Shown: piece by piece, positions 1 to 6,685 of the stretch
How positions within the stretch are numbered: position 1 is the first letter of the stretch
Layout of the letters: every line of letters begins with the position of its first letter
Virus record (IMG/VR): IMGVR_UViG_3300012350_000006
Location: 1-29,407 of that record
DNA: 29,407 bases
Reading direction: 5' to 3' (one strand)
From: a virus
Notes under the pieces: generated by a model
Told to the model about the DNA's origin: nothing
Databases searched by the model: none
Seen by the model: the letters and a program-made list of their open reading frames with translations, nothing else
Translations under genes and position numbers: made by a program

Positions 1-441
1 ACCACCGCCAACACCACCGCGAACAGCACCGTCAACAGCATCGCGAACAGCATCGCCAACAGCACCGCCAACAGCATCGCCAACAGCATCGCGAACAGCA
101 TCGTCAACAGCATCGCCAACAGCATCGTCAACAGCATCGCGAACAGCATCGCGAACAGCACCGCCAACAGCATCGCGAACAGCACCGCCAACAGCACCGC
201 CAACACCACCGCCAACACCACCGCGAACAGCACCGTCAACAGCATCGCGAACAGCATCGCCAACAGCACGGCCAACAGCATCGCCAACAGCATCGCGAAC
301 AGCATCGTCAACAGCACCGTCAACAGCACCGCGAACAGCATCGCGAACAGCACCGTCAACAGCATCGCGAACAGCACCGCCAACAGCATCGCGAACAGCA
401 TCGTCAACAGCATCGTCAACAGCATCGCCAACAGCATCGCC
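1..441 (-). repeat. 12-bp coding minisatellite, ~36 units
   Basis: On the minus strand the tract is a perfect-register 12-bp repeat, GTT-NNC-NNT-GNT. The second codon is GGC, CGC or GAC, the third is GAT or GGT (once CGT), and the fourth is nearly always GCT. No unit has an insertion or deletion and no third codon position varies, so every difference changes an amino acid. The tract runs off the left edge, so the full number of units is unknown. Confidence 0.97.
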
Positions 442-675
442 TTTATCGATAAGATAACCAGCCGTAGGAGCAGCTAGTGCTAGAACCAATGGGTTATTCA
501 CCCACACTACTCGCTTAGGACGATTAAATTTAGCTTTATCATAAGCAAGAGCTATGTTTTCTTCAAAACGAGGGCGATCTGCTTTCCCGACTTTTAGTCC
601 AATATCTGTCCACTTCTCAACCCATTCAGGAATACGAGATTTCTGTTCATCGGTTAGTTTATAGATGCGTTTCAT
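1..675 (-). CDS. DUF6745-like protein with tetrapeptide repeat tract (3' end beyond window)
   Basis: The frame is open from an ATG at 675 to the left edge, so the C-terminus is missing. The first ~65 residues (LTDEQ...IPEWVEKW, DRPRF, then RVVWVNNPLVLALAAPTAG) resemble the N-terminus of DUF6745-type proteins as I remember them: a helix, an adjacent DRPxxE...AY segment and a 'V.W..NPL..AL' strand. From about residue 79 the protein becomes a tandem four-residue repeat, D/G-A-V-G/R/D, that continues to the window edge. The function of this family is unknown to me; in some relatives a similar Ala/Val-rich repeat follows the N-terminus. It is the last visible gene of the leftmost minus-strand unit, 30 bp after the 706-1026 gene. 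The family call is by eye; the open frame and repeat are directly visible. Confidence 0.75.
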   Translation of the reverse strand, partial: MKRIYKLTDEQKSRIPEWVEKWTDIGLKVGKADRPRFEENIALAYDKAKFNRPKRVVWVNNPLVLALAAPTAGYLIDKGDAVGDAVDDAVDDAVRDAVGGAVRDAVDGAVRDAVRGAVDGAVDDAVRDAVGDAVGRAVGDAVRDAVDGAVRGGVGGGVGGAVGGAVRDAVGGAVRDAVRDAVDDAVGDAVDDAVRDAVGDAVGGAVGDAVRDAVDGAVRGGVGGG

Positions 676-705: not shown

Positions 706-1026
706 CTAATCAAAAACCTGAGCAATTATTTTAGTAATGGGATTGTACTCAACTTTGTGAACGACTTCCCAGATACCTGGCTTGATCGTTAATGTATCAT
801 GCTGATCATGAGACTTTTTGTGGGTTAGGAGTGAATCTAGCATTGTCTCTACATACATACGATTATCTTTCTCTAAAACTCGCATAGAAACTGGGCTTGT
901 CAAAACGTGGTGGTGACCAGTCTCAGAATGGCCTACGATTACCACCTTAAGCTCCTGCGTATCTCCTTCGGGCATTTTCTCGATCGGGACTAGGACATTT
1001 TCCCCGTGCTGGATGGGCGTATTCAT
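706..1026 (-). CDS. small conserved phage protein with GHSETGHHH motif
   Basis: A 106-residue protein starting at ATG 1026, overlapping the stop of the preceding gene by four bases (ATGA) and preceded by GGAG. It is soluble, with no membrane segment. The central GHSETGHHHVL motif and the opening 'GENVLVPIEKMPEG' resemble small proteins that I recall lying next to DUF6745-like genes in phages and actinobacteria (GE.TGHAH-type motif). The His cluster could bind metal, but that is inference. Its place between the Cys-rich gene and the DUF6745-like gene suggests a three-gene module. It stops with TAG, which shows that UAG is a normal terminator here. Confidence 0.8.
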   Translation of the reverse strand: MNTPIQHGENVLVPIEKMPEGDTQELKVVIVGHSETGHHHVLTSPVSMRVLEKDNRMYVETMLDSLLTHKKSHDQHDTLTIKPGIWEVVHKVEYNPITKIIAQVFD

Positions 1027-5811: not shown

Positions 5812-5817
5812 TATAAT
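5791..5817 (+). promoter_or_regulatory. -10 box with overlapping dyad (candidate operator)
   Basis: Consensus TATAAT at 5812-5817 has no good -35 at 17 bp (TATCAT at 5789-5794). The spacer carries a dyad, ATCAT (5791-5795) and ATGAT (5803-5807), where a regulator could bind. Expected start near 5824, 16 bases before the ATG at 5840. Confidence 0.55.
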
Positions 5818-5839
5818 GAAACTATTAAAAGGATACGTT

Positions 5840-6685
5840 ATGGAGAAAGCTTGCCAACAATGCTCAAACCTCTTTACAGCCCAACGATCTACTGCTCGAT
5901 TTTGTTCCGATGCCTGCAAACTAAAATTCAATCGCGCTGAGCTGAGACAGAAGAAAAATATTTCAGAGGGCTTAGGGGAAGTAGCGGATGGGATTGTAGA
6001 AAGCGCCGAGGAGGCATATCAGCGTCGCTTAAAGGGGTTTTTGGCCCAGCTTGAGCCTACAGAGTGGTTGACTACAAATACGCCACTCGATGAAATATCG
6101 CTCCTGCCAAAGCACAAAATCACGCTCATTTACGGAAGGCCTGGAATCGGTAAAACCACTCTAGCTCATAAAATTGCCTTTCAGGTCCCGCGAACGCTTT
6201 ATATTGATACCGAGGCTAGTGTCACCCCGGAACGGCTAGCTCAGCTTGGAATCGAACCGACCTCATTTACGCTCAAGAAAATGTCAATGGTAGAGGACAT
6301 TTATGAACTATTAACAGATGAGAAGTTCCTAAATCGGTATGATTTTATCGTCTGGGATTCGATTGGCGCTACGCTCTGTATGACTCAATTGCAAGCCAGT
6401 CCGACCGAAATAATGAACCCGAGCCTAGTACGGGCGAAAATTATCAATCAACTGATGCGCATCCTGCCAACAAAACTGGCCAAGACCCACACTACCCTTT
6501 TGCTCATTAACCAGGAATACCAGGAGGTCAAAGCTTCCTATGCTCGTGTTATTCCGCCCGGCGGGGAGGTGCAGCGGTACTCATCGAGTCTCACGATCCG
6601 CCTGACCGGGGAATACCCGAAGGTGACGGCCGAAGTGAAAAAGTCCCGTGTTGGTGAGAGCAAAAAGGGTGAATTTAAGCTTTAA
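5840..6685 (+). CDS. zinc-finger RecA-like ATPase
   Basis: Start ATG 5840 (AAAAGGATACGTT upstream); an earlier in-frame ATG overlaps the promoter. Domains in order: a four-cysteine zinc finger (C5, C8, C22, C26, with FCSxxC spacing), a linker helix, then a RecA/RadA-type P-loop ATPase. Walker A is GRPGIGKTT at residues 99-107 and the Walker B strand is DFIVWDS near 168-174. A later strand TTLLLINQ and a GGEVQRYSSSLTIRL segment match the RecA core region around loop L2. At 281 residues it is shorter than RecA. It probably binds phage DNA and uses ATP in recombination or replication repair. A KaiC- or DnaB-like role is an alternative. Confidence 0.8.
   Translation: MEKACQQCSNLFTAQRSTARFCSDACKLKFNRAELRQKKNISEGLGEVADGIVESAEEAYQRRLKGFLAQLEPTEWLTTNTPLDEISLLPKHKITLIYGRPGIGKTTLAHKIAFQVPRTLYIDTEASVTPERLAQLGIEPTSFTLKKMSMVEDIYELLTDEKFLNRYDFIVWDSIGATLCMTQLQASPTEIMNPSLVRAKIINQLMRILPTKLAKTHTTLLLINQEYQEVKASYARVIPPGGEVQRYSSSLTIRLTGEYPKVTAEVKKSRVGESKKGEFKL

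Follow-up and report, generated by a model that had tools for sequence, protein, structure and literature searches.

In this study, we describe a family of phage genes in which tandem 12-bp units encode a four-residue repeat. Comparison of 60 such arrays at the sequence level indicates that selection probably holds residues 1 and 2 of the unit varied while recombination shuffles the array. This repeat pattern was previously known only from gp54 of mycobacteriophage Tweety, in one phage group, and is now extended to some 60 related genes, mainly from phages. The same repeat logic is found here in an unrelated and widespread phage family, nearly always next to the same small partner gene, which suggests a general route by which phages let a defence-facing protein evolve by recombination rather than by point mutation. 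One of these arrays opens the window, by which we mean the whole stretch of viral DNA analysed (29,407 nucleotides; positions 1 to 29,407 of IMG/VR record IMGVR_UViG_3300012350_000006).

The window array, its host gene and its partner

Coordinates of the features described in the window
Feature	Position	Strand	Basis
ORF of DUF6745-type protein, 3′ end cut by contig end	1..675	-	225-aa open frame, N-terminal domain and array
Tetrapeptide array	1..441	-	36 full 12-bp units and 9 nt, consensus [G/R/D][D/G]AV; TRF and reading-frame inspection
Conserved N-terminal domain, about 78 aa	442..675	-	Profile matches, alignment with phage homologues
Partner gene, 106 aa, distant PHROG_27831-type member	706..1026	-	Iterated profile; 30-nt gap, directly upstream of array gene

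The original prediction had described about 36 tandem minus-strand units of 12 bp encoding a four-residue repeat, with neither third-position nor length changes, and we confirm this description. Indeed, TRF reports 36.3 copies at 6-441 with 0% indels (score 592), the array is in frame with the ORF (675..1), and the third positions of all four codons are invariant across the 36 units. Codon 1 is GGC (14 units), CGC (13) or GAC (9), codon 2 is GAT (22), GGT (13) or CGT (1), codon 3 is GCT (33) or GGT (3, among the full units), and codon 4 is GTT in 36/36 units. The five variable sites, namely positions 1 and 2 of codons 1 and 2 and position 2 of codon 3, all change the amino acid. The codon variants listed beforehand are all present, but two had been overlooked: the CGT (Arg) at codon 2, restricted to unit 15, and the Ala-to-Gly GGT at codon 3 of units 19, 20 and 36 and of the partial unit. 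Part of the array appears to be a recent internal duplication, since units 12-19 recur as units 29-36 with a single difference (lag of 17 units, permutation p = 0.01). As the contig stops within the array, the count of 36 units applies to the part contained in the contig.

Profiles of the N-terminal domain match 16 viral contigs, and the domain is also present in MW202476 and MW584211; in an alignment with three other phage proteins, the window domain is 72% identical to that of L002, 29% to that of L003 and 27% to that of L010. The assignment of the host gene as DUF6745-like finds indirect support, through the relatives and not in the window itself. The 225-aa fragment has no Pfam match above cut-off, and PF20530 has no match in the window record, whose contig stops ahead of the expected core; the DUF6745 core of the window protein is thus expected past the contig end. 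The nearest relative, IMGVR_UViG_3300005617_000294 (G001, 44 kb), is 72% identical in the N-terminal region and has a PF20530 match (48.9 bits for a cut-off of 27) at the contig end opposite to the N-terminal domain. Its array gene exits the contig start inside the array, and the other end opens in an array of the same type followed by PF20530. As both ends lie within the same array type, this contig, listed as linear in IMG/VR, is probably a complete circular genome cut at the array. In other relatives, PF20530 also comes after the array. Our literature search found no paper naming DUF6745.

Seven contigs carrying the N-terminal domain terminate 306-732 bases past the domain start, and of the 75 viral contigs with a core, 24 are truncated in the part of the ORF that lies upstream of that core, 16 of these having at least eight array units. 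The array is therefore a regular assembly break point, and such arrays should be expected to break or distort short-read viral assemblies. The concern that the array might be an assembly artefact was justified to this extent, but breakage does not create the codon pattern.

With an iterated profile, the partner family was detected next to DUF6745 in 69/75 loci from viruses and in 79/80 cellular ones. Homologues of the window partner match PHROG_27831, while the window product itself falls below the threshold of that model; the neighbour gene in L002 is 69.5% identical to it. The pair of DUF6745 and partner occurs in phages, plasmids and actinobacterial chromosomes (neighbour loci L039-L193), and the partner is also present in Microcystis phages, where the DUF6745 protein has no array. 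We found no published description of this two-gene module. Chromosomal homologues retain the core and the partner without an array, so that the basic function presumably needs no array. The window and G001 have the partner/array gene pair in common, but searches of G001 with the window TerL and major capsid gave no match, the TerL search being run without a positive control. This combination suggests that the gene pair is a cassette mobile among phages. Elsewhere in the window, an inverted-repeat-like pair (CTGATACAGGGGGA ... TCTCCCTGTATCAG) lies at 1253-1351, in a gene-poor stretch among minus-strand genes.

Residue choice and turnover across the family

The survey covered 16 viral loci for the N-terminal domain, and 75 viral and 80 cellular loci for the DUF6745 core; one profile built from mixed families (A2) was discarded for scanning because of its divergence. 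In the majority of viral members, an array of 12-bp units in frame separates the N-terminal domain from the core. Arrays were found in 56/67 viral and 7/80 cellular loci, and are absent from most chromosomal members and from the Microcystis phage members. This raw association is strong, but it is not significant after tree correction, for which there are too few pairs (median p 0.25), and we therefore rejected arrays as a phage-only trait. Among distant DUF6745 proteins (L099, L101, L104 and L107-L113), we noted another type of backbone, x-[A/D]-A-T, which is closer to the Ala-Ala repeats of Tweety gp54 than the AV/QV type is. The same array gene type was also seen in two records of Nocardia farcinica NCTC11134 (L016 and L017; NZ_LN868939 and NZ_LN868940), in one of which the reading frame is broken within the array; it is probably a duplicate or misassembled sequence.

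The original prediction had proposed comparing synonymous with nonsynonymous differences between units. We performed this comparison on 1,868 units from 60 arrays. With every distinct codon change taken once per array and singletons left out, we obtained 14 synonymous and 226 nonsynonymous variants where 67.6 synonymous variants are expected, a roughly fivefold silent deficit. The nonsynonymous excess is confined to residues 1-2 (S = 7, N = 215), residues 3-4 having S = 7 and N = 11. The binomial p for the synonymous deficit (~1e-18) is too small because the arrays share ancestry; on the tree of the DUF6745 core, we counted at least 16 backbone residue changes and at least 28 backbone codon changes, with the proviso that array and core may recombine. 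Many silent changes in relatives would have spoken for ordinary drift, but in 53/60 arrays no silent variant is repeated, and the silent substitutions seen are concentrated in a few degenerate arrays. In the window alone, 5/5 distinct changes being nonsynonymous is not significant (p ~0.19, 0.72^5, with a synonymous opportunity of ~28% taken from the family-wide array count). Thus, the suspicion that silent changes are fewer than drift would leave is not borne out by the window alone, but it is by the 60 related arrays, with 14 observed against 68 expected.

Residues 3-4 are fixed inside each array and differ among arrays (QV, QL, AV, SV, AT, NL, SL). Third bases vary among arrays, but the change is then array-wide. 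In spite of the backbone changes counted on the core tree, codon 1 position 1 is polymorphic in 59/60 arrays, which gives a second line of evidence independent of the binomial p. With G as the third base, residue 1 is Gly, Arg or Trp; with C or T, it is Asp, Gly, Arg, Tyr or His. Its repertoire is glycine, basic or aromatic, with acidic residues mainly within one codon class, and aromatic residues are present in most arrays; residue 2 is mostly Asp, Ala, Gly or Ser in the surveyed arrays. At residue 1, Cys, Ala and Val, each a single step from Gly codons, are nearly absent, and yet Tyr, which takes two steps, is common. Mutation alone is therefore insufficient, which argues for selection for a particular residue mix. 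The shuffling of charge-changing variants, put forward earlier as the principle of the array, does not fit this repertoire, and charge order is random, with no signal of alternation between adjacent units (pooled z = -0.36). A fixed structural periodicity of the units was likewise dismissed, since nothing beyond weak signals at short lags and duplications particular to an array was detected, and free shuffling within units, with residues 1 and 2 independent, was rejected on pooling, even though most combinations do occur.

Comparing repeat count and unit order among relatives, another check suggested beforehand, revealed that both differ despite identical flanks. The Mycobacterium abscessus prophage L010 has 46 units and the prophage L044 has 19, in a different order, although 5,000 flanking bases show 0 mismatches between them. 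L111 and L112 have 15 and 17 units (0 mismatches over 6,950 flanking bases), L077 and L082 have 40 and 57 (6 mismatches over 3,800 flanking bases), and L046 reaches 62 units with a core identical across 530 bases and diverged outer flanks. Near-identical arrays have their end units in common, their interior is re-ordered and almost no new unit types appear, a pattern expected from inter-unit recombination. In single cases, certain array-length differences could reflect short-read assembly error or collapse. Altogether, the earlier picture of an expanded, shuffled and diversifying array is sustained by turnover and residue selection, both seen in relatives, with the exception of the charge principle and of the surface role discussed below.

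The window also encodes (5816-6685, plus strand) a RecA/AAA_24-type ATPase with a cysteine-rich N-terminal segment, possibly a Sak4-like phage recombinase, which could promote recombination between repeats.

Proposed mechanism and alternative explanations

We propose that the array would join the N-terminal domain to the DUF6745 core in a phage protein encoded next to its small partner. Slippage or homologous recombination among the 12-bp units would add, remove and re-order units with the frame intact, and the same process would even out silent positions across the array; turnover is shown in the relatives, and its route is inferred. Selection keeps residue 1 glycine, basic, aromatic or acidic and residue 2 Asp/Ala or Gly, with residues 3-4 constant, as the family-wide counts show statistically. 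The repeat region may then set the spacing or the contact surface between the two domains, and altered repeat number or order may retune an activity in defence or counter-defence that the protein would carry out together with the partner. Taken as a whole, a recombination-shuffled and selection-diversified array within a tunable defence or counter-defence protein like Tweety gp54 has in our view about an even chance of being right; the tunable defence function of the DUF6745-type array protein, which leans on this analogy, is itself offered tentatively, at somewhat under even odds. We consider it unlikely that the two variable residues are letters of a modular recognition code, with about six combinations per unit (Gly/Arg/Trp by Asp/Ala, or equivalents). 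If they were, recombination would re-spell the array and track shifting host or prophage defence partners, in many phages, with one two-gene module.

PADLOC gave no match to defence families. AlphaFold modelling of the L044 homologue yields confident N-terminal (mostly helical) and DUF6745 domains and does not resolve the array, for which a helix is suggested with low confidence (pLDDT ~30-50); a model of the window protein only is poor (mean pLDDT 48). In fold searches, the L044 model had significant matches to two viral models only, one of them named DUF6745, and none in the PDB (best Foldseek E 1.1; VIA-align Z ≤4.1, mainly residues 280-365).

Other origins of the variation can be considered. 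A neutral young array, grown from a few founder units that by chance carried nonsynonymous differences and too recent to have gained silent ones, would be in line with the five changes of the window, with its recent internal duplication and with the small fixed set of unit types used by near-identical prophages. It is nevertheless improbable, because the two-residue polymorphism recurs in 59/60 arrays whose backbones and codons differ, silent changes are about fivefold too few, and third bases change among arrays and then array-wide. Restriction of the variation to particular codon positions could also recall a diversity-generating retroelement, or some other mutator directed at the first two codons. 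We regard this as very improbable: no reverse transcriptase (PF00078) was detected in the window record and three relatives with a search whose control was positive, changes extend beyond template adenines and include G/C and C/G changes, and near-identical arrays show almost no new alleles.

As for the role of the array, a low-complexity or helical spacer, in which length matters and mixed residues prevent aggregation or mispacking with no part in recognition, is the most serious competitor, though less likely than not. The low-confidence helical prediction, the random charge order with little order signal besides duplications, and the changed repeat number of Tweety escape mutants (PMC9262239) would all agree with a spacer, but the restricted, recurring residue set with aromatics in most arrays exceeds what a spacer needs. 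The original prediction had raised the possibility of a variable surface or host-interaction protein, here taken as a surface or receptor-related protein varying to alter host range, and fast length and order variation is indeed typical of host-interaction proteins. We could not retain this proposal, which now seems quite unlikely: there is no sign of surface location, the gene sits among small genes on the strand opposite to the structural genes, the window protein matches no family of structural proteins, actinobacterial chromosomes also contain pairs of core and partner, and the closest studied analogue, Tweety gp54, acts in counter-defence. Returning to an array shuffled by recombination and diversified by selection, the gene set and its natural repeat-length variants offer concrete material for testing recombination-driven evolution.

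Comparison with Tweety gp54 and other repeat proteins

In-frame repeats of variable number have been described in another phage gene, bbp36 of Bordetella phage BMP-1, whose VR2 is set apart from the window array by its description, with a 24-bp element and a variable spacer (PMC2884959) instead of a 12-bp unit. Pentapeptide-repeat proteins also consist of short tandem residue repeats, with a period of five and not four, and the window protein has no match to Pfam repeat families. DUF6745 (PF20530) proteins share the N-terminal domain of the window protein and, in the relatives, have their core after the array; unlike the window, most chromosomal and Microcystis phage members are devoid of an array.

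The unit type of the window array, again with invariant third positions, is found in Tweety gp54 (Pham et al., PMC2884959), and Tweety escapes the defences of Phrann or MichelleMyBell prophages through gene 54 mutations that raise or lower the repeat number (reviewed in PMC9262239 and PMC8549241). By our unit count, Tweety and relatives with 0-8 N-terminal mismatches have 49, 39, 31, 17 and 14 units. As in Tweety gp54 and its Cheoctovirus relatives (PHROG_3416), distinct N- and C-terminal parts here enclose tetrapeptide repeats of 12 bp in frame, each unit combines two constant with two variable residues, third codon positions are invariant, and copy number varies with near-identical flanks, the latter being seen in the relatives of the window and not in the window itself. 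The constant residues differ, however, being Ala-Ala in Tweety gp54 and AV/QV/QL/SV/AT in the DUF6745 arrays. In profile searches, Tweety gp54 matches PHROG_3416 and not PF20530, the window protein does not match PHROG_3416, and no PHROG_27831-type partner was found beside gp54 in the stretch searched; since gp54 lacks both DUF6745 and the partner, the analogy is one of the repeat alone. Judging from these searches and alignments, the window protein resembles Tweety gp54 in its repeat behaviour, yet belongs to another family.
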